Assembly: GCA_021904315.1 (NCBI GenBank)
Contig: CM038911.1
Coordinates: 8,591,390 to 8,655,389, forward strand
Source: Sphagnum magellanicum
Taxonomy: Eukaryota; Streptophyta; Sphagnopsida; Sphagnales; Sphagnaceae
DNA: 64,000 nucleotides
Direction of reading: 5' to 3'
A program made the translations under genes and the position numbers. Below, piece by piece: positions 6,380 to 64,000 of the stretch. The notes below the pieces were generated by a model. It saw only the letters and a list, made by a program, of their open reading frames with translations. It made no database searches and had not been told where the DNA came from. Numbering within the stretch: the first letter of the stretch is position 1; every line of letters starts with the position of its first letter.

Positions 6380-7430
6380 TCAACACATGGAAGTTGAGAT
6401 GTGGCACAAAAGTTGTTGCAACAATAATGTATAAATGTCCGGGTGAAATTTATAGAACACCTTATAAGGGCTAACATACTTTGTATGAATCGACTTCCTA
6501 CAACTTCATGCATCTTCAAACCCTGAATGTTCAACCACATATGATCACCAATCTCAAATTCACTATACCTTCAAGTCTTATTCATTTGTTTCTTATGACT
6601 CACTTATGTTTTCTCCAAAAGTTGTTTAGCCTACACGTTCAACTTTTGTGCATTTTGACCATCTTTACAACAATTTTGCATCCCTCACAATGATATCCTT
6701 CAAACTTTAAGATGGCTAAGTGCATGGGTTTTCTTGCTTCAACTCCCAATGTTGACTCTAAGGGATTTGCCCCAATTGTCAAGTGTTTGGTTGAATTGTA
6801 ACAAAATTCTATTAAACTTAAGTGGTTACCCCAATCCTTATAATTGGCACTCACATAGTTTTGGAGATATTAATTTAGTATCCCATTCACACTCTCAATT
6901 TGGCCATTGGTTTGTGGATGGAAAGGCATGTTAAATTTCAACTAGATTTAACCTTCTTAATAAGAAATGTCCAAAATTTTGATATGAATTTGCCACCATG
7001 GTCACTTATTATGACCTCTAATATGTCATGGTGTCTAACCCACATATCAAAGAACATGTTTGTTGTCAATATCGTTATGGTTGTGGTTTTAATTGGTCCA
7101 AACTTGGCCAACTTGGAGAATTTGTTTACCATTGCCAAGATGGCATATTTCCCTTGCCATTTTAGTAGCCATCTCATGAAGTTCATTGTGACACCTTCAT
7201 ATGGACATGTCGTAGTAGGTTTTTTATGTCTATACAACCCAAACTTCTTTTTATGCACCAACTTGGTGTTTTGGCACTTCACATAAGTGTGTACATAATA
7301 TTCTATGTCCTTTTTCTTTTTATGCCAATAAAAACTTTTACTTAAATTCTCATGGTCTTTTCATCCTAGTGTCTTGCCCTTGGCACATTATGCATTTCTT
7401 GCATGGGGTGAAAACATATTACAAGGGGGC
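6380..7430 (-). pseudogene. pol: Ty3/gypsy integrase and C-terminal region, degenerate
   Basis: The minus strand gives KCQNTKLVHKKKFGLYRHKK, then the core with MVNKFSKLAKFGPIKTT, MWVRHHDILEVIISDHGGKF and, after a gap, DWGNHLSLIEFCYNSTKHLT and LGVEARKPMH. It continues toward 6380 with an SH3-like tail (EIGDHMWLNI, KYVSPYKVL). The first catalytic Asp is Asn (MVNKFS), whereas SDHGGKF keeps the second. The element family differs from the one at 56 kb. RT and RNase H are missing or unrecognisable upstream, so this is the 3' end of a truncated or interrupted element. Integrase inserts the cDNA copy; here it is dead. Confidence 0.85.
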
Positions 7431-14479: not shown

Positions 14480-15330
14480 AAAAACCCTTAAAACTCAATC
14501 AATAATTTTCTGAGTGAAAAAATAAATTCATAGAATCCAAAATAGTAGTTCAGAATTCAAATATCAATTTTTAGATCAAATAATTCTTTTGAAGTTAAAT
14601 AAAAATTTTCATTATTGAAATGTGAATTTTCAGATTCAAATAACAATATTCAAAGCTGAAATGTCCAATTTAAGAGTCAATGAATAATTTTCTGAATTGA
14701 AATATTAATTTAGTGACTCCAAAATAATAATTTGGAATTTGGATTTCAACTTTCAAGTCAAATAATTTCTTAAATTTTAAATTCAAAAATTCAGAATTGA
14801 AATATCAAATTTTAAATTCAAATAAAAATATTTAAAATCAAAAAGTCATTCTAGACTCAATTATAAATTTTTGAATTGAAATAAATTTTTTAGATTTGAG
14901 AATAATAATTTAGAGCTGAAATACCAATTTTTAGATCGAATAGGTTTTTTAAATTTAAGGAAAAAAATTCAGAATTGAAATGTCAATTTTCAGATTCAAA
15001 TAAAAATATTCAAAATTGAAATGTCCATTTTTAGACTCAATTAATAATTTTCACTCTTGAAATATTAATTTAGAGATTCAAAATTATAATTCAGAATCCA
15101 AATTTCAAGATTCAAATCAAATGATTATTTAAAAATTTAAATGCAAAATTTTCAGTGTTTAAATGTAAATTTTCATATTCAAATACAAATATTCAAAAGT
15201 AAGATGTCCATTTTTATAATCAATTAATAATTTTCTAAATTCAATTACTAATTTTTGGATTTGAAAATAATAATTTAAAATTCAAATACCAATTTTTACA
15301 TCAAATAATTTTTGAAAAATTTAAATAGAA
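14480..15330. repeat. Diverged ~180-bp satellite-like array, about five units
   Basis: The landmark ATGTCCATTTTTAGACTCAA (with variants) and the following AATAATTTTCTGAATTG appear near 14482, 14661, 14841, 15021 and 15204, spacings of 179-183. Each unit is itself built from ~40-base AATTCAGAATTGAAATAT-like sub-repeats. Sub-repeats without the longer period continue to about 15890. Confidence 0.75.
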
Positions 15331-15889
15331 AACTTCATTTTGAAATAAAATATTTCAAATTCAAATAGTGTTTTGAACAATTGAAATAGCAATTTTGAGA
15401 TTCAAATATGAAGTTTCAAATTGAAATAATGTTTTTAAAGAATTAAAATAAAAGTTTTAAAATTGAAATATAACTCTTTAGATGAATTTTTTTTAATGAA
15501 TTTAAAATTTAAAAATTCAGAACTAAAATATGAAATTTGAGATTTAAAGATTTTAAAATTTAAATTCAAATAATGAGAAAAGAAATTCCAATATCTGTTT
15601 TTGGAAGTAAAATATTAAATTTCAGATTCAAATAAATTTTTTAGAATCAATGATGTAAAAAATAATTCCAATAGCAATTTTAAAAATTGAAACATCGATT
15701 ATAAATTTTAATTAAAATTTTCATAATTGGAATTCTAATTTTAGACTTAGACATATATTTTTTATTACAACTAATAGTTTTTAGAATTCATATTGAAAAT
15801 TCAAATAACAATTTTAAAATTCCAATATGATTTTCATAATTGAAATGATAATTTTCAGATTTGAATAACAAATTTCAAAGTTCAAATAT

Positions 15890-42598: not shown

Positions 42599-42850
42599 AT
42601 TTCAAGCAAAGGAAAAAAAAGGTCAGATCTTCAATCGAAATCAAATTGACAATGAAGGTGTGAGGGACTTGTTACATTGAGGTGCGCAATCATAATTTAT
42701 AGATCGAAGAAAAGGAAATAAAAAAAGGCGTGAGTAACGGCTTAGGACCATGGTAAAGTAAAACTGTGAGGTCAAAGGAAAAAATTGAGGGTGCAAGTAA
42801 AGTTGTTGGGGGAAAATGGAAGAGGTGAAAAGGAGTTTTTCCTTCACCTT

Positions 42851-43050
42851 CCAATGGCCACCAAGCTTGGAACATTCCAATGGCCACCAAGCTTGGAACA
42901 TTCCAATGGCCACCAAACATGGAACATTCCATTGGCCACCAAGCATGGAACCTTCCATTGGCCACCAAGCATGGAACATTCCATTAGCCACCAAGCATGG
43001 AACCTTCCATTGGCCACCAAGCATGGAACATTCCATTGGCCACCAAGCTT
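42851..43050. repeat. 26-bp minisatellite, about 7.7 copies
   Basis: Units such as CCATTGGCCACCAAGCATGG plus six more bases repeat every 26 bases with few differences. Because 26 is not a multiple of three, all frames are open across it on both strands, which makes long but meaningless reading frames here. Several units contain the palindrome CCAAGCTTGG. Confidence 0.95.
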
Positions 43051-54470: not shown

Positions 54471-55815
54471 GTTTTAAGATCAAAACGATTGTTTAAAACA
54501 AATGATAGTTGAACTTGACATTATTTTTCAAAAGCAACCTACTTTGGAAAGAAAGTTGGAATGAAAAAATAGTTGTTGGATGATAAGGTTAAACTTGCCA
54601 TGCAAAATGAAAAACTTTTTTAGGATTGTGAAGTAGATTGCCAACTTTTGATTATGTCCTTGATGATCATTGATGAGCAAAGGAACAAAAGGCTATTCAT
54701 ACGTAATGCTTAGACAACATTCAATTGTGCTTGGAAGTTAAATTGAGTTTAAAGAATTTTCATAATGTTAAAAAAATATTAAGAATGCATGGACATCACT
54801 TAACTAATTGTGCTTGGAGGTTAAATTGAATGTTTAGAGAATATCCATAGTGCTTACAAGTTACATTGAATGCTTAGAAAGTAGGCATTATGCTTGCAAG
54901 TATAGCAAGTGCCTAAAGATTGTGTTTTGTGCTCACATGTAACCATCAATGTTTTTAGACAATATTCAAGCCGAAGGGTTGTTCTTATAACCACTTAAAG
55001 CCTACTTATGTTAGGTTGCTAGTTCTTTAAGGTGGCACAAAAACTATCAAGTATTTCAATGGTTTTTATATTCTAGAATGCCCATGGATTAGTTGCAAAA
55101 TGAAGGCCATAATTGAGAAAGAAATCACCTTACTGAATTCATATAACTTGGACCTTATATTCTTCAATTGGGGGAAAACTACGTGCACAATTCAAAACCT
55201 TAGACATGTGGTGCCTATTTTTATTTCCAACAAGTATTTCACAATATTTTGTCAAGGAATAAGGCAAATATTACGTAAAAGCCAACAAATTGGGCATTAT
55301 GCCACTTGTTCATTAACAAATTTACTTGAAAACTTTATAGGGCATTAGTACAAATCATTTTGAACAAATCAAGAAATGAAACAATGTCAAAACAAACAAA
55401 AAAAGTATTTTGAAAAGTGGATAATTTTTTTCAATTCAATCAAGTTATAAGCATTTTAATGGGTTGTTGATTCTATTGGGGCCAATACACATCTCAAAAG
55501 ACACACATAAGTGTTACCTATCCATGGCCTAATTTTTTGTTCAAAGTGGTGTGTGTAACATTGTATTTTCATGTGGTGGAAGGAAGGTGTGTTGTTTTGG
55601 ACAAATTTAAAATACCTATAAAATACCATGCAAAACCAAATGTTGTCGTGACGTGTAATGTTGTGACATACGGTGTCATAAAGGTGTAAATCCATAATAA
55701 ACTCTACTAAACAAAAAGACTAAAAACCGATCAAAGGTAAAAACTAATCAACCAAAAAGAGATGCATGCACATATGCATATGATGCACAAGAAGAAGCTG
55801 AGATGAAATTCTCAT
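54471..55815. other. Non-coding flank; short degenerate repeats and expected site of the 3' LTR
   Basis: 54700-54960 repeats a ~45-base word (TGCTTGGAAGTTAAATTGA and variants) several times. The part next to 55815 should contain the 3' LTR of the DNMT element, but without the 5' copy I cannot mark its limits. Confidence 0.4.
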
Positions 55816-55819
55816 GTAT

Positions 55820-55832
55820 CCCCCCCCAGACC
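55820..55832 (-). other. Polypurine tract candidate, plus-strand primer site of the DNMT retrotransposon
   Basis: On the element strand an uninterrupted run of eight G preceded by GGTCT lies 37 bases beyond the stop of the PHD frame. This is the expected place for the polypurine tract that borders the 3' LTR. I could not identify the LTR itself. Confidence 0.5.
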
Positions 55833-55868: not shown

Positions 55869-57190
55869 TCAAGGTGCTACAAAAAAACATGATGAACAAT
55901 ACCAAATGTTGGCGGGAACTGGAATGAACTTCGACTTGAGGCAAAATAAATGGTATCCACCATTACAATTATCACAAAGCAACATTTGATCAGCATCATC
56001 TGTCCTTTGACATATTTGACATGGATAATCAAGTGGAGGAATCCAAGTCGACATGATGATGGTAGGATCTAAGTTCAATAGGTGGCAAAGCGCACAATTT
56101 TTGGAATGATCCCAAATTGTGCATCCGTTAGCTCCTTGCAACTCTAACACACTTGAAGGCTTGATCACCTTAATCTTCAAAATAGTGCGATTGAAATAAG
56201 TGTCTGGAACATCATTAGGTTGCCACTGGAGACACACAAAATCACCAACATCAAATTGTTTCACCTTTGGTTTGTAACTATCACCTCGTGTGTGTGCATA
56301 CTATAAGGTGTCTCGATGATGTGCAATGGACAAGTTCTCCATGGCCATGGACATAACCTTCCTGAATAAAATAGCCTTCTTTACGATGACCCTAGCCCAA
56401 GTGGTTGGGGAGTTCGAGTCCACAACCTAGTCCATTTGAACAACAATGGAAAAGGGTGGAATGGGATGTTTCCCAAAAAGTAGAAAGTAAGGAAAGAAAT
56501 GAGACAAAGAGGTGTGTTTGGACATCCTATAACCCATGGTGATGTGCGGTAAGGCCAGGTCCCAATCTTCTTTGTTCCTAGTGAAGCAAATATTCCAAAG
56601 TCCCTTTTTGCATGTCTGAACTATCCTCCCTTTGAGGCCATCAACTTGGGGATGATCCCTTGAAGTTCGGCAATGGTCAATGAGAGCATGGTCAAGTAGG
56701 TATTGGAATTCTCCTCTAAATTCTAATCCTTGATTAATAAGGCACTCAGCATGAGCCCCAAACCTACCTAGGACCTGTTGTAAAAAAGCTTGACTAATGT
56801 TATGTGATGACTTGTTTGCCAACGCAACAAGCTCGACCCACTTTGAAAAATGTTCAATCATAATCATGATGTAAACATTACCCCTAGAGGTCTGTGGTAA
56901 CTCTCCACCTAAATCACATGACCAATGATAGAATATGCCCTAAATAGGGAGTGGAGAAAGTGTGAGCTACTAAGAGGAGAAGGAAGTTTTCACTTTATCA
57001 CATTATTCACACCTACCAATGATGTCTCATACTTGAGCATACATACCTCTCCAATGGTAATGAGTGAGAAGGCTATAAATACACTTAACTTTGAAGTGTC
57101 CAAGTTCCACATGTACTTTCTAAATAAGACCACGCTATTCATGTGGTGGAGGAACCACCCAATCGCCTTGTGGTAAGCATCAGACAAGGT
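55869..57190 (-). pseudogene. pol: Integrase with C-terminal PHD finger of the DNMT retrotransposon
   Basis: The core reads MIMIEHFSKWVELVAL, then LINQGLEFRGEFQ and DHPQVDGLKGRIVQT, then LALPHITMGYRMSKHTSLS. The second catalytic Asp is Asn (NQG) and the usual Glu position in the third motif is Gly (KGR), so the D,D-E triad is broken. The N-terminal zinc-binding part (about 57187-56990) is not clearly intact. After the core, a 131-codon frame (56264-55869) begins with an SH3-like integrase tail (VGDFVCLQWQPND) and ends with an intact C4HC3 PHD finger at 56024-55887. Its ligands fall at residues 82, 85, 97, 100, His105, 108, 123 and 126 of that frame, including MLLCDNC and WYCSSC. Many plant gypsy integrases carry a chromodomain at this place; here a PHD finger takes it. 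PHD fingers often read histone H3 tails, so a role in choosing insertion sites is an inference. Confidence 0.88.
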
Positions 57191-57316
57191 GATTATCCCT
57201 CCATAAGTAGCATTTGGATCATTGTTGTATACAATCCCGATGACTTGATGTAACTTGGGGAGGGTATTCCCCGTGCTAAAAAAACCTTAGAGTGTCCAAG
57301 TCCTCCCATATATCCA

Positions 57317-58927
57317 CTATGGGATGTTAAACCAAGTTACATTGCAGTAGTGCAAGATAACTAGATGCATAAATACATGTACTGTTGGCATCTTGTCGAA
57401 GTCTTGCCTGGCTTCTAAAAAATCTTCAGAGGTAATGAGGGGTCTCCACAACATGGTATCCACGTTCTGATGTGTAATACCAGGTCGGTGAATAACTTTG
57501 AACTCATAATCCTGAAGTATAAGCGCCCAACAAGCTAACTTATTAAGAAGCTTATCGTTTGTCACCAACCACTTGTTAAGCTGGTAGTCGGTATACAAAA
57601 TGAACTCGGTGCCATAAATATAGGGCCTGAAATGTATGATGACCCATACAACAACAAGACACTCCCCCTCGTATGAAAGGTAATTGCTCTCAGCCTTGTT
57701 CTTGCTTTGGGATGCATAGGCGATAACATATTCCTTGCCTTCCTCATCAAATTGGCCAAAAATAGCAACAATACCAAGAGCACTCCAGTTAGTGTGTAGA
57801 ATGAAGACCTTGTTGAAATCAAGTCTTCTCAGAATGAGGAACTCTGAAAACTTTTCCTTGAGTGTGTTGAAAGCTTCCGAAGCCTTTTCACTTTATGTCC
57901 AAGCAACATCATTTTTTAACAATGCAAAAAGAAAATGAACAATAGTATTGAAATCTTGGACATAAATCCTATAATAATTACATAATCCGATGAAACTCTT
58001 CAAAATGTGAACATCAATAGGATTGGGCATCTCCAAAATGGCTACTACTTTGGCCCAATGAACCATAATACCATTTGGCAAAATTCTGTGTCCAAGGTAG
58101 ACTACTGAAGTGACAACAAACTCAGAGTTTTTAGGACGGATCTTCATATTGACTTTGTGGAACCTCTTGAATAACTGTTCAAGATGAGCCAAGTGTTGCA
58201 GGAGTCCCTTGCTATGCACTAGGATATCATCTATGTAGCATTTCAGGAAATTTGCCCCTTCAAAAACTTGGTCCATGACTCGCTAAAAGAAGAGAAGTGC
58301 ATTCTTTAATCCAAAAAGCATTGCAAGCTATTCCCACAACTTGTTGCTTCCATGGAATGTTGTTTTCTTACGATCCTTTGCAATGAGCGTAATCTGGTTG
58401 AAGCCTTGCCTCAGATCCACAATTATGAAGATGTTTGAACCTCTAATGCTATCAAACAATTCTTCAGGGATGGGAATGGGGTACTTGTCCTAAGGTGTAA
58501 CCAAGTTCAAAGGCTTATAATCCCCACACATCATTTTTTCAGTCCATAATCTAGTTGAATCCTTCTTTACTTACATTACTATAACGGCTACGAAATCAAA
58601 ACTTGATGGTTGAATGAGACCAACCTCATGGAGCTTTTTGCATCCTTCATCTATTAGTTCCCACTAATGCTTGCTCAACCTATGCCTCCTTCAATAGATG
58701 AATGTTTCATCTATAAAATCTATAGAGAATTGCATGGTCTCACACCTACCTAAGTCTTTCATTGAGAATGCGAACACATTTTCATACTTAATTAGCAAGT
58801 TTATGACCTGGTTTCTCTCCTTCTTGGTGAAATGGTTCCCCATAACGAAAAGGTAGTTGGAAACACATGGAATGTAGTTGGAAAGTGTGTTTGAAGAACT
58901 TGGTGTATTAAGTTCTCCACTATCCAA
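57317..58927 (-). pseudogene. pol: Reverse transcriptase and RNase H of the DNMT retrotransposon
   Basis: The RT begins near 58927 after a linker (GELNTPSSSN) and contains GDYKPLN, then IIVDLRQGFNQITL with the first catalytic Asp near 58415, then the active-site box CYIDDILVHSKG with YIDD at 58237-58226. The thumb and connection regions follow (YLGHRILPNGI, IGLCNYYRIY). RNase H occupies about 57840-57480. Its first acidic residue has become Asn (FILHTNWSALG), while the Glu in YEGECLVVVW and the Asp in YTDYQLNKW remain. The order and wording are typical Ty3/gypsy. It would copy element RNA into DNA and remove the RNA strand. Several stops and frame changes interrupt it. Confidence 0.9.
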
Positions 58928-59162
58928 CTACGTAGATTCACAAAAGGTTGTAATTGTTTCTCTAAAACCTGATGTACCTCCAGGTGTATCAAAAAAAATT
59001 TGAGTCAATTTACATGGTACCTCCTCCTCCCCAACACTAAGAGCGAAGTGTAAAGTGTTGAAGATAGGCAAGTGTATTGGTCGGGGTGCCATGTGGTCGC
59101 ATCACTAGAACTATAAGTTGATTGAATAAGTGATGATGTTGCGTACATTTGAAAAAATACAC

Positions 59163-60120
59163 AGGTTACCAACAACCATTTAAAGGAGTTCAAGTCCATG
59201 CCTCTCCCCAATAGAGCATTACACTCCAATCTATTCACCTTGGTGTGACTAGTAGTGCCAATTGGGAACCCCATAGCCCTTTTTTTTTCTTTTAGGCTTG
59301 GTTCATCTCAAGTGGCTGAGGCATGACGATAAACTAGGCCTGGTCCATCTCCTTAAAAGGCGTGTGCTCTTGGGAAAGAAACAAAGGTGGGCCAAGCACC
59401 TTTCAATTTTCTTATTGTGTTCACAAGAAACTGAGGTTTTTCTTGCCTTGTAACTAGTTGGTAGGAGCTTTAATCATCCAATATGTGAAAAACCTACAGG
59501 TTGGGGTCTTTAATGGTGTATCTTAGATCCAACTACAGAACTAAAAGTGGTGCAAGGTTGGTCCACCAGTTGCATAACCAGTGCGCATAGGAACTGCATT
59601 ATGCTGCATCGAGTAAGAATGGTTTTCTAAGGTAATGTTTAACCAGCGTGTAGTGCTCTTGGACTTTCTCCCTCTGGTCAAGCTGAAAAGGGGTGTTCTC
59701 AATTATGTAACCAAGCATAGGAGAAATGGATTGAGCCCAGGTGATTAATTGTACCATGTCTGTGAAGAGACCGGATCTTGTGTCATTCAATCCTTCTCCA
59801 AATCCAACCGCTGAAAATCCTTGACACTCCCAACCTGAAATGATGAGCTCCACGGGGCCAAGTAATTCCATGTGCTTATTCTAAATTAGTTGTATGTTAA
59901 AGGGCAAGAAAGTGAAATTGGCCTTCCATGTGGTGGTTGCAAACTGTTGTGAAAATCTAGTTGTGGGCTCCATCATTCTCAATGCTGCCACTTGCCTTAT
60001 AATAGGATCAATGTCTATATAAAAATACCTCTAAACGACCATCCTTGACTATAGTAGGGCTTGGAGACCTGTACCAATACCACCAAAAAGTTCTAATAAT
60101 GTAATCCCCTCCTTAGGCAG
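59163..60120 (-). pseudogene. C5 DNA cytosine methyltransferase domain inside a Ty3/gypsy pol region
   Basis: About 320 codons read in one register without a frameshift. Motif I, the AdoMet-binding loop, is LLELFGGIGTGL (60061-60099). An acidic motif II-like FYIDIDP follows. Motif IV, the catalytic loop, is SGWECQGFSAVG, with the catalytic Cys codon at 59824-59826. Motif VI is YIIENTP (ENT at 59692-59700). A motif VIII-like segment with WWTNL lies near 59540-59570, and a C-terminal motif X-like segment ends LLGRGMDLNSFKWLL near 59170-59216. The family transfers a methyl group from AdoMet to carbon 5 of cytosine. Two residues are unusual: the Pro of PCQ is Glu, and ENV is ENT. Both need more than one base change from the canonical codon, so they may be family traits. 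Nine in-frame stops (TAG, TAA, TGA) plus Arg-to-Trp and Arg-to-Cys changes show decay, mostly explainable as C-to-T. The reading is strong because all motifs are in order at normal spacing. Confidence 0.9.
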
Positions 60121-60230
60121 TGTCCAAATGATTAGCTAACAAAATACTAACTTAATGGTTCGCCATGGCTCTCCATGTTCTCAAAACTAGATAGAACTTT
60201 GACCAAACGCTCGTGGGCTGCTTTGAACCT

Positions 60231-60860
60231 CTATAAAACCTTTGGTCCATGTTGAATGTTAGTAAGAACCACCTTCAAGCTTTCATTAGCTTGGGCGTAA
60301 GCTATCTCCTTTTCATTTCCTTCTATCCACTCGTGGCTAGCTTGTTGAATGTAGGAAATAGTGTGTGCTTCCTTGAGCATACAATGGTGAGCCATAGGAC
60401 TATGGTTCCCATGTAAATCAAGGGGTATGTATCCCAGGTGGTGGCCATTAATCTCCCAATCCACTCGGTAATACACATGCTCGAACCAATTGTTGATTAT
60501 GAAACCTAGTGGAAACAGGGCCTCTTGCCCAATGAGCACATCATAACTAGTGGCATTGGTGACTAAACATCTGACCTATAAGCAAAGTTTCTAATCTTTA
60601 CCTTTATTGAAGTTAAATGTAATCAAATCCAAACTTTCCTTAAGTACCTCCTCTACGTTCCCACTAGCGATGTGAATTTGCCACATAGTTTTTTATAGTT
60701 TGGAATCAAGCATGCCCATCTTCTTGGTGAATTGAACTCCAAGATCATTGGTTGGGCACTTGTATCAAGAAGTAACACTTTGGGTGTATGTCCTCCCACC
60801 TAGATTGCTGACTCAGTATTGTTGACAATGGCAATTCTAGCAACAATGGAAATTCTCTCA
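60231..60860 (-). pseudogene. Retropepsin-type aspartic protease and linker of the DNMT retrotransposon
   Basis: The minus strand shows KVLLLDTSAQPMIL with the DTSA tetrad at 60755-60766, the variant of the retropepsin active site (D-T/S-G/A). About 65 codons later comes ATSYDVLIGQEALF, which matches the hydrophobic I/L-L-G-x flap-end signature of retroviral proteases, and then a well-preserved 102-codon stretch without stops (60539-60231) rich in Trp, Tyr and His (NNWFEHVYYRVDW). That stretch joins the protease to the methyltransferase and has no function I recognise. The protease would cleave the Gag-Pol polyprotein. Several stops and at least one frame change between this part and the methyltransferase show decay. 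Confidence 0.75.
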
Positions 60861-61299
60861 CTAGACACCACCTTCAAAAATGAATGAGAGATTTTGTGAA
60901 AAGAATGGTTATCCACAACGCCTTTGTTGAGTAACAAATCCACAAATGAAGTGTTCTTAGCTCCCTTTTAATATGTGAATGTAAAATCAGAAGTAGGAAA
61001 GCCCACTAATTTAGCCATGCTAGATTTAATGACCAGATTACGAACACCATCTTTAACAGTGAGCTAATTGAATGTCTCTCCAAAGTGTTGGATGGGACCC
61101 CTATAGCATGTGGATCAAGGATTGATAGGGGACCTAATGTAGTGTTCATGGTATCCTTTAATACTACAATTATGTCCTTGGTGCTTAGCTTCAAATCTTG
61201 AAAACTAAACAACAGTGTACTCACAAGCTTTTGCGCCACTTCACGCATTTGAAGTTGGCACTCCATAAGCTGATCAATGGAAAATTATGTGTTTTCCTG

Positions 61300-62953
61300 A
61301 TGTATATGTACTCTTGGGACACGAGAATTTGATGCCCTAACAACTTGTGGTGTAGTAGTCTCCCCCCCTTCACCAACATAGTGCGTTCTTCTTTCGTGTT
61401 GAGAGGACAAAAAAATTATGGCATGACTATTCAAATTCCTCTAGCCCTAGTAATAGGACTTGAACCAAATGCAAGTCCATCAATCTGAATTACCTACCTA
61501 ATGGCAAAAACTCTAGGTGCCACACTAACCTCTTGTGCCGCAAAGTAGGAAGGGCAAAAAGAAGTGGCAAATTCTAGTGTGAGACTAGAATTGTGTGCAC
61601 TGGAAAGAATATACTCCCCAACCATGACATCATGTGGGAGGCCATAGAACAACCTAAAAGGTCCCTCCCATGATCCTGAACCCTATACAGGTTGGGCAAA
61701 ACTAGCTGGTTGGGAAGACTTGCCTTTTAGATTAGCAAGTTAGGCCTTCAATGATTCGAGTTCATTTTACAAAGTTTGAACTTGAGCAACATGGGCTTGA
61801 AGCACCTCCCTCTTGTCGACATTGTGTTCCTTCTTCTTAGCATTCTTATTGGAATTACCCTTGGTGGGGAAAGCCTAAGTGGAAGGCTGAGGTGCCTTGG
61901 CTTTTGGTTGAGGGGCAGTGGAAGATGTTGGCAAATTTTGCCATGGTAATTGGAGTTGTTTCCATTCTGGGAACTTCACAAAACAAACAACTTCTTGATG
62001 TCCCTCTTTCCCACAATAATCACAAAAGAGGTCTTCGGAAGGAATGTTGCACTCATTAGCTTTGTGGGCAAAATTGCCACATTAGTTGCAAGAAGGTAGG
62101 ATGGGTGCAACCGAGTGCACTGCTTTAGCCTTTGAAAAAGAATGTGATGATCTGGTTCACGTAGTTAGTGGAGGATGAAGCCTTGAACGTGATGGAGGCC
62201 TCATAATATTGGCCTCATATTATGCACAAGCCAATTCTAGCTTTTCAGAAATGTTGTACACATCTAACAAAGTGTACGAGTCTCCAAATTCTGCAAAAAC
62301 CCGTTGCAAAACTTGCACATGGAGTGTCAAAATACCTTCTAATGAACAAAAATATCGATGGGCAACTTCTAGGTTTATGATGCTCTTAGTATCTTCTTTA
62401 AGCTTGAGAAGCCTCATATAGAGCATCTTGAGGGTTTCATCCTTCTATCGAAAGAAGGTGGCAAACTATAAATTTTTTTCAGAACTCTTGATCAGAAATT
62501 CCAACTCAAGAACTCGAAAGAATTCCCCCACTAGATCAACAAAAACTGGTGCATCGATGGTGGGAGGAATGTTGTGGTAGCAATAATAAATTGTTGAGGA
62601 GAAAGGTTTATTGAAGTTGGTACCAGATTTAGATTATTGGGCACAATCCCATGATGTGCAATGGCAACTTGAAATGCAGCTGGAAAGGCAATGACGATGG
62701 TTGTGGCATAATCTAAATTAGGGATCTAGGTGATGCCCAAAATCCTTGAAGAGTGTTGCTCATAGACATCGAATGCCTCAAAGTGCACATAACGGGCCAG
62801 TTATTTGAATGCGAACGCCTCAGTGTAATTAACACCATACTTGAGTTCTAATTCACAAACCACAATTGAGAATGTTGCCTTGAACTCCTTCAAAGAAATG
62901 GTACCTGGCCTTCCACTAAACTTATTAATCCCAAAGAAACTATTAACTTCCAT
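61300..62953 (-). pseudogene. gag: Gag polyprotein of the DNMT retrotransposon (capsid-like region, two zinc knuckles, coiled coil)
   Basis: The frame opens with an ATG at 62953 (MEVNSFFGINKFSG) and reads about 280 codons with scattered stops. One stretch (62426-62220, ending SEKLELACA) has no stop and resembles the helical capsid part of plant gypsy Gag. Two CCHC knuckles follow. The first, near 62050-62095, keeps C-x2-C-x4-H-x4-C spacing although one inner residue is now a stop. The second, near 61986-62030, is intact (CDYCGKEGHQEVVC). Downstream is a lysine-rich stretch and a heptad-like segment (about 61740-61850) that could form a coiled coil before the protease. In the family Gag packages the element RNA into virus-like particles and the knuckles bind nucleic acid. 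Multiple nonsense codons make it non-functional here. The Gag identity rests on the knuckles and position; the capsid call is by resemblance only. Confidence 0.75.
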
Positions 62954-64000
62954 GGTGTATATGGGTGTAGAGGTCACAGCTTACAACTGAATATACGGTG
63001 ATGGTGTGAAAGTAGGTGCGGCAACAAGTGTACCGCACTAATTAACCCATCCAAATGGATTTTGATGTACCATTGATGTAATGTAACCTAAACTTGAATT
63101 CCTAATAAGAATTGTACTAGATGACATTGGTGTTATAAACGTTTTGATGATATTGTAGTGAAGATCATGAGTTCAAAAAAATCAGCTCAAATGATTGTGT
63201 GTTACTTCGTAGCTGATACTTAAGCTTTGGCTGAGCGGTAATGCTCTCATCATCCAAGGACATGGTGTTGTCCCATGCCCCAAAATTTGGTAACAATGTA
63301 GAGCACTAACTACAAAGTTCTAACACAACCATGCAATTAAATGCAACTATAATGAAAACTAAATGTGAAATGCTTAAAAGAACATACCCTAAGCAAAACA
63401 TACCCTAGGCAACTTTCAATCTCTATAATCACTAGTGCTAAATGACGAAGTAGAGGAAGAAAGAATTGTATATTTATGTATTAATAAAATTACGTAAATG
63501 TATATATTAATACAAAAATAACGTCAATATACATATTAATATTAAATATGTAGATGTATGTATTAATATGAGAGTATGTAAATGTATGTATTAATTTTTA
63601 TTTATTTATTTAAATAAAAATAAAAATAAAAGTGTTGGTGGACGAAACAAAACCAGATGGACAAAACCATGGACAAAAGTATGATGAATGTTAGACGAAA
63701 GTCGGACGAAAATCCATGATGCGACGTCAAAGGCCACGGCATTACAAAACGCTCGTGAGCTCCACAGCAATGGCTGATAACAACGCAATATCGAAGGCCA
63801 CAATGTTGCAAATTATGACACTACAAGTGTTACACCTTGCAGCGGCACTACAAAAGCTATTTTTTTAGTTTTTTCTTCTTACCTCATACTTGTTTGTTGT
63901 CTCCTTGGCACTTGCCTTCACTCCTCTTCTCCTCACAAGAGCACAGTATATTAAAAAAAAAACAGAAAACAAGTAGAAGGGAGAGTTTGAAAGAACAAAA
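62954..64000. other. Leader and probable start of the 5' LTR of the DNMT retrotransposon; AT-rich, unresolved
   Basis: This lies upstream of the Gag ATG on the minus strand. It holds no reading frame worth calling. 63440-63630 is dominated by repeats of the type ATGTATATATTAAT and by T/A runs, and 63640-63830 is richer in CpG. No convincing primer-binding site or LTR boundary could be fixed. The second LTR copy needed to define ends was not recognised near 55 kb. Confidence 0.35.

Follow-up and report, generated by a model that had tools for sequence, protein, structure and literature searches.

The window, the whole 64-kb stretch of Sphagnum magellanicum DNA analyzed here, contains a damaged Ty3/gypsy retrotransposon on its minus strand, ordered gag, protease (PR), DNA methyltransferase (DNMT), reverse transcriptase (RT), RNase H (RH), integrase (INT), PHD finger, polypurine tract, and repeat B. 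The element spans 55644 to ~65548, its first ~1.5 kb lying beyond the window edge, and the following parts were located within the window.

61066..62980, minus strand: gag region (64-78% identity to gag of an open genome copy in tblastn)
~62090-61983, minus strand: two degraded zinc knuckles in gag, read by eye, one interrupted by a stop
60408..60886, minus strand: aspartic protease with DTSA, DTGA in the reference copy (tblastn, 55-79% identity)
59104..60135, minus strand: DNMT3-type C5 cytosine methyltransferase, motifs I-X, with ECQ as motif IV (PF00145, E=3.3e-7)
57845..58801, minus strand: reverse transcriptase with YIDD (PF00078, E=9.2e-10 on 57893-58282; 80% identity to the open genome copy)
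57306..57844, minus strand: RNase H (PF17917, E=5.7e-28)
56259..57062, minus strand: DDE integrase, rve (PF00665, E=5e-8)
55872..56108, minus strand: PHD finger at the end of Pol (PF00628, E=7e-11)
55820..55827, minus strand: polypurine tract GGGGGGGG, directly before repeat B and in the same place in ten printed copies
55644..55819, minus strand: repeat B, 178 nt in the reference, at the 3' end of the window copy (blastn, 84% identity)

The order gag-PR-RT-RH-INT with an rve integrase places the element among Ty3/gypsy retrotransposons. Gag was assigned from its position and the zinc knuckles, and a Pfam search of the open copy returned no Pfam match for gag; the protease piece of a genome copy matches PF13975 (E=5e-8). 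No chromodomain was seen at the integrase end, where a PHD finger was found instead. Copies of the element carry two repeats, A (311 nt) and B (178 nt), arranged as A-body-B-A-B in a long form or A-body-B in a short form. The window copy is of the short form; its repeat A begins at ~65548, beyond the window, and its flanks read GCAT at the start of A1 and ACAT on the 3' side. It is decayed, with 52 stops in 2351 alignable codons. An initial annotation of this DNA had placed a DTSA protease and a YIDD reverse transcriptase on either side of the methyltransferase on the same strand, and both are indeed present, at ~60.77 kb and ~58.2 kb, respectively. The element outlined there rightly joined PR, DNMT, and RT but was too small, as gag upstream and RNase H, integrase, and PHD finger downstream also belong to it. 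Self-comparison revealed no second DNMT copy within the 64-kb window. The same comparison marked tandem-like repeats at 42846-43048 and at 14488-15548, the latter where GC is very low (0.18). An open stretch at 6938-7360 on the minus strand, separate from the DNMT element, appears by eye to be a piece of another gypsy integrase.

The methyltransferase occupies one minus-strand register from 60129 to ~59104, in which motif I (LLELFGGIGTG), motif IV (GWECQGFS), and motif VI (IIENT) follow in order; the same register continues with a VIII-like LCNWWTN and the IX/X-like KRAMGF and LLGRGMDLN. The annotated run of C5 methyltransferase motifs is thus borne out by reading and by PF00145 as regards order and register, with the amendment that motif IV is ECQ instead of PCQ and motif VI is ENT. 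Ten in-frame stops interrupt the 390-codon piece. With X at the stops, the PF00145 search that the annotation had suggested gives 30.5 bits (E=3.3e-7) against a cut-off of 22, and the longest stop-free stretch alone (59880-59599) reaches 26 bits. The open genome copy, to which the window DNMT is 80% identical, scores 38.6 bits. A protein search with the domain yielded 193 matches at E<=0.001, the best at E=5e-168, which excludes a chance likeness. Several lines of comparison define its type. The motif order I-IV-VI-VIII-X is unrearranged, and a profile built from 33 family members matches DNMT3A (6e-26), DNMT3B (2e-22), DRM (1.8e-12), and HhaI (3e-7), with neither DNMT1 nor CMT among its 57 matches with E up to 1. 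An AlphaFold2 model of the relative P0001 has block mean pLDDT values of 71 to 96 over residues 80-420, mostly ~90 or more. The 50 matches (of 1218) listed by a Foldseek comparison with the PDB are all entries of DNMT3 proteins or their complexes, with by-target TM-scores between 0.41 and 0.83, and the closest solved structures among the matches listed are DNMT3A/B/C. By motif order, profile, and predicted fold, the domain is of the DNMT3 type and not of the DRM, CMT, or MET1 type.

A protein search of the genome (438,994,042 bases in 31 contigs) with the relative P0003 scored at least 117 copies of 1054 candidates. Its 118 rows lie on contigs C1 to C20, and 13 domain-spanning rows and one partial row are stop-free. 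Twenty copies were fetched for comparison. One of these encodes gag to PHD as a single frame of 2379 codons, and the longest frames in six others run from 1007 to 1936 codons. Repeats A1/A2 and B1/B2 are identical (100%) in one long copy, 95-99% alike in five other measured copies, and less alike in some, so that part of the insertions must be recent. Taken alone, the broken window copy could pass for a gypsy relic into which a bacterial methylase or host DNMT gene had landed by chance, and the initial annotation had likewise allowed for a methyltransferase present only here as a stray insertion. A search with RT scored at least 125 places (of 4303 candidates), and mismatch between the two lists gave the appearance of DNMT-free RT relatives. 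Nine of the RT places without a partner in the DNMT list were picked by eye and fetched, and all nine carry the DNMT, seven of them nearly whole in at least two HSPs and two in part (L041, L043). Together with more than 100 domain copies in the genome, single frames that link DNMT to protease and RT, and relatives in other bryophytes, this makes a chance landing exceedingly improbable. The genome-wide copy search that had been proposed thus returned a family feature rather than a stray insertion, and the window element is a decayed member of a large, recently active family.

The genome also holds a second DNMT-gypsy family, of PCQ type. The fifteen best rows for the query P0094, at 43-52% identity, outscore every other genome row, and two copies were fetched.

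C14:10651900-10662300: PCQ-type copy (L031, L032)
C18:10524900-10537000: PCQ-type copy (L030, L033, L034)

Both copies read GWPCQGHS and ENVP and are stop-free in that piece. The PCQ-type copies have the same order, gag-PR-DNMT-RT-RH-INT-PHD, and share the end motifs and 4-bp duplications described below, one copy being long (L031) and the other short (L030).

The PCQ expected of motif IV was not found in the window element or its clade, which have ECQ with the Cys and Gln retained. To our knowledge, the Pro of PCQ is nearly universal elsewhere. Motif IV is readable in 140 of 267 family proteins, the 127 without a readable motif being left out of the count, and reads PCQ in 72, ECQ in 58, and otherwise in 10. 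Among the genome copies, the motif IV Glu is present in 19 of 19 and the catalytic Cys in 18 of 19; the Glu and Asn of motif VI are kept in all 19, and the two Arg residues of motif VIII in 18 and 17 of 19, respectively. As judged from these alignments, the motif IV Glu is a feature of the family and not a product of decay, and a conserved ECQ instead of the catalytic PCQ in the clade of the window element is new. With a conserved Glu in place of the Pro that precedes the catalytic Cys, members of the ECQ clade may or may not be catalytically active on DNA.

Selection on the domain was gauged from the 20 fetched copies (153-190 pairs per domain, the window copy excluded and single copies missing from some domains). 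Mean pairwise dN/dS is 0.33 for DNMT, 0.30 for RT, 0.31 for INT, and 0.36 for PR (171-190 pairs in these four domains), with 0.36 for gag and 0.41 for RNase H; the linker that follows DNMT reaches 0.57, and the short piece of PHD stands at 0.23. The DNMT is therefore under overall purifying selection, with a dN/dS near that of RT. Among variants common to at least three copies, nonsynonymous and synonymous changes stand at 14:6 in DNMT, 14:15 in RT, 16:32 in gag, 4:6 in PR, 4:4 in RNase H, 2:6 in INT, and 3:8 in PHD. The 14:6 among shared variants implies a weaker constraint on DNMT than does its overall ratio; the domain may be less constrained than RT in the active lineage, the counts being small. 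These data bear on a further possibility, namely that the ECQ domain has given up DNA methylation and persists in Pol for a structural role or for binding nucleic acids, or has turned into an RNA methyltransferase. Such a loss would accord with a Pro-to-Glu change beside the nucleophile that is seen in 58 of 140 family proteins and fixed in 19 of 19 genome copies, and with the 14:6 ratio. It fits poorly with the near-complete retention of the catalytic Cys, the motif VI Glu-Asn pair, and the motif VIII Arg residues, with the overall dN/dS of 0.33, and with the intact predicted fold, and is thus considered unlikely, albeit far from negligible.

Three protein searches, with 193, 183, and 40 matches (the first two listing 120 each), place the family in other organisms. 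Named relatives among the matches listed come from Sphagnum compactum, S. balticum, and S. magellanicum and from the liverworts Calypogeia fissa and Marchantia polymorpha; the nearest named relatives of the window clade are from the three Sphagnum species and Calypogeia. The claim, made from the window alone, that a DNMT-bearing Ty3/gypsy element like the one in charophytes is present in a land plant is supported by this family and its bryophyte relatives. Other named matches are from a Candidatus Obscuribacterales bin (P0207) and, distantly, from Paraburkholderia (P0266). P0207, a metagenome-bin entry annotated as a bacterial DNA cytosine methyltransferase, is probably eukaryotic contamination. 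One scan of viral contigs, from which records near the window's genome may be absent, found no relative.

For a tree, 268 matches were reduced to the 57 that cover at least 78% of the profile and then to 48 by removal of near-identical rows. The five ECQ rows of Sphagnum type cluster as a single clade with 100/100 support. PCQ rows fall in several groups, one of which joins Calypogeia and Marchantia (99/95) and then the P0094 group (98/96). The base of the tree is without resolution, and two further ECQ rows, P0250 and P0254, stand apart. Calypogeia P0038 and P0021, both outside the 48-row tree, read GWECQGFS and align with the Sphagnum type. The position of the DNMT differs among distant relatives, with the order RT-RNase H-DNMT in P0254 and DNMT-integrase-PHD in P0255, P0258, P0262, and P0263; four of these five group with P0259 in the tree (94/96). 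The DNMT has consequently either moved within Pol or been captured more than once. Some of the liverwort proteins might instead have taken on a host role, as the annotated Marchantia gene Mp_8g17980 (P0245, 1248 aa) could suggest. P0245 retains gag and zinc knuckles, however, and more Marchantia gene models look alike, so that an element copy is the simpler reading of this gene and domestication is improbable. Both Mp_8g17980 and the annotated Sphagnum gene CY35_15G039600 (P0101) resemble pieces of the element, and such annotated pieces can distort counts of host DNMT genes.

Retrotransposons with a DNMT have been described from algae. KnitGypsy-Dnmt3 of Klebsormidium nitens is reported as an LTR Gypsy element with Dnmt3 in Pol, DIRS-like A-coding-B-A-B repeats, and purifying selection on the DNMT (de Mendoza et al. 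2018, PMC5890265). The same article describes the SymbioDIRS-Dnmt3 and SymbioLINE-Dnmt retrotransposons of dinoflagellates, the former with A-coding-B-A-B repeats and an enzyme for which CG methylation was shown (PMC5890265). A further report mentions, for streptophytes and dinoflagellates, LTR Copia and DIRS elements that contain DNMT3, and the word bryophyte is absent from its main text (PMC12344493). The open-access literature searched contains no report of a DNMT-gypsy element in a bryophyte, moss or liverwort, which is not proof of absence, as most subscription papers lie outside that scope. Compared by published description, KnitGypsy-Dnmt3 resembles the Sphagnum family in its Dnmt3-type domain in a Gypsy Pol, its repeat order, and its purifying selection. 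The Sphagnum family differs in having bryophyte relatives, more than 100 scored copies, ECQ in one clade, a PHD finger after the integrase (a word absent from the main text of PMC5890265), and described short A-body-B copies and 4-bp duplications. The dinoflagellate elements share the presence of a DNMT in a retrotransposon and, for the DIRS ones, the A-coding-B-A-B arrangement; they use a tyrosine recombinase or LINE machinery, as described, in contrast to the gypsy RT and DDE integrase of Sphagnum.

The ends of the Sphagnum copies are unlike those of an ordinary LTR element. Repeat A begins TGTCATG and B ends CACGACA, giving copies with TG..CA ends, and A lies at the left and B at the right in 17 of 17 copies for which both ends were recovered; the remaining seven of the 24 copies examined (L009, L010, L012, L013, L014, L016, L024) did not yield both. 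Identical LTRs at both ends are absent from all 17. Exact 4-bp target duplications flank 15 of the 17 copies tested. They read CTCT, AACA, TGAC, GGTT, AATA, GGAG, and CTTG (PCQ-type L030) in seven short copies and AACT, CAAG, TAGG, TCCT, AGGA, TCTA, CAGC, and TTTC (PCQ-type L031) in eight long ones. The other two copies match at 3 of 4 positions, namely the window copy (GCAT/ACAT, short) and a three-B copy (TTGC/TTGG). The latter, at C4:3308200-3318000 (L054, L055), is arranged A-body-B-A-B-A-B, its B repeats spaced by 488 nt. The genome contains 133 occurrences of a 19-mer taken from the right end of B and 0 of its reversed control. Long forms in both families have the split direct repeats A...B-A-B, and short forms are without the second A and B. 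The internal B-A junction contains a 2-nt spacer in 10 of 10 printed copies (GC in six, GT in two, AT in two), and that of L031 is GC. Five copies (L015, L020, L023, L024, L028) have a flush A/B join; 2 nt are missing from it in L018 and 3 nt from each of the two in the three-B copy. The join was unreadable by the pattern used in L013, L016, L026, and L027, and L031 has ~250 extra nt between A2 and B2. Permuted copies with exact 4-bp duplications, and the short A-body-B form, are new.

Signals at the inner edges of the repeats provide insight into replication. A G tract adjoins B in ten printed copies, one of which reads GGGGGGGA. Immediately downstream of A, the sequence is exactly complementary to AGTTTTTCTAGA at A182. 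This self-complement measures 12-13 nt in 8 of 9 copies and 10 nt in the ninth, and always begins at the A end (offset 0). Among 200 shuffled A sequences per copy, the longest match at any offset has a mean of ~6.4 nt and a maximum of 9 to 12 nt, so that in some copies a complement of this length could arise by chance; where it lies is more telling than how long it is. The PCQ-type copy L031 has no self-complement at its A end. TATAAA lies 32 nt upstream of A182 in 6 of 6 copies. A tRNA primer site, judged by eye only, was set aside. In Tf1 and Tf2, the primer binding site directly after the LTR is complementary to the LTR stretch that forms the RNA 5' end, which allows self-priming; Tf1 has ordinary LTR ends at integration and no DNMT. 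The Sphagnum family resembles Tf1/Tf2 in the complement directly after A to the A182 stretch and departs from Tf1 in its unlike ends and its DNMT. The polypurine tract and the putative Tf1-like self-priming site would define the LTR as B-A.

A replication cycle can be proposed on this basis. Transcription would start at A182, 32 nt behind the TATA box, and the RNA 5' end would fold onto the 12-nt complement after A and, in the manner of Tf1, prime reverse transcription. With the other end set by the polypurine tract, the cDNA would be B-A-body-B-A. Integrase would then bypass the LTR ends and use an LTR-internal site, CACGACA-2 nt-TGTCATG, with loss of the 2 nt. A two-LTR circle opened in this way would give A-body-B-A-B, and a one-LTR circle, or later recombination between B repeats, would give A-body-B. 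The short forms are equally explicable by B1 x B2 recombination, which counts against the integration model. Integration at the LTR-internal site, perhaps from LTR circles, is the best fit to the copies as a whole.

The repeat order allows a different reading. PAT and TOC1 are split-direct-repeat elements with the order A...B-A-B, a tyrosine recombinase, and no 4-bp duplication. The Sphagnum family is similar to them in repeat order and different in its rve integrase, TG..CA ends, and 4-bp duplications; the hallmark of DIRS/PAT elements, a tyrosine recombinase without target duplication, was not found, and rve integrase and 4-bp duplications stand in its place. The A-body-B-A-B unit might still be copied whole from RNA via the internal B-A bridge, as in PAT or DIRS elements, with the DDE integrase merely substituting for the tyrosine recombinase and with the short and three-B forms arising later by recombination between B repeats. 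The repeat order, which is that of DIRS elements and that stated for the Klebsormidium element, is in keeping with such a scheme, as is the three-B copy, whose two A/B joins have lost the same 3 nt, a pattern that in this copy suggests template copying or unequal exchange. A polypurine tract next to B and a putative self-priming complement next to A, however, belong to ordinary LTR replication; the joins that are flush in five copies, short by 2 nt in L018, and short by 3 nt in the three-B copy are what end joining would give, and 4-bp duplications are present. PAT/DIRS-like replication, in all three of its components together, is the less probable reading, and LTR replication followed by LTR-internal integration is preferred, though by no decisive margin.

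In that preferred cycle, the methyltransferase and the PHD finger could act on chromatin. Chromoviruses are Ty3/gypsy elements with a histone-reading module, the chromodomain, at the integrase C terminus; the Sphagnum family likewise combines Ty3/gypsy machinery with a histone-reading module in this position, differing in that the module is a PHD finger and in having a DNMT. The methyltransferase, once released by the protease, might mark either the cDNA or the site of insertion, and guidance of the pre-integration complex to histone tails might fall to the PHD finger. Marking and guidance together would let new copies begin in host-like silent or self-tolerated chromatin. The decay of inserted copies provides a footprint of methylation. 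In 18 copies, the two most diverged (L014 and L016) being excluded, singleton transitions occur at rates per site of 0.028 at CG (48/1722), 0.032 at CHG (84/2662), 0.010 at CHH (349/34715), and 0.0018 at A/T (113/62465). This footprint indicates that inserted copies are methylated in all contexts, as are plant-silenced transposons. C-to-T decay of similar strength at CHG and CG argues that host silencing acts on the copies too, and points to ordinary plant silencing, whichever enzyme initiated the methylation; self-methylation by the element, as envisaged in the initial annotation, is conjectural.

Taken jointly, the evidence makes probable the overall picture of the window element as a decayed member of a DNMT3-bearing Ty3/gypsy family, in which self-priming, LTR-internal integration, and chromatin roles for DNMT and PHD finger are the proposed parts. 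The fuller combination, a self-primed land-plant LTR family in which integrase would cut inside the LTR, circles would insert, and an altered DNMT3 and a PHD finger would write and read chromatin, is put forward tentatively, as somewhat more apt to fail in one of its parts than to hold throughout. DNA-methylase transposons have been stated to be absent from land plants such as tracheophytes (PMC6338049). Set against that statement as worded there, the Sphagnum family widens the known range of DNA methyltransferases borne by transposons beyond algae to include land plants, and at high copy number. Its permuted copies with 4-bp duplications bear on the old question of LTR circles as integration substrates, and a simple reading of DIRS-like repeats in an element with a DDE integrase is offered. 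Because PCQ and ECQ families reside in one genome, it becomes directly testable in Sphagnum whether a transposon writes self-silencing marks.
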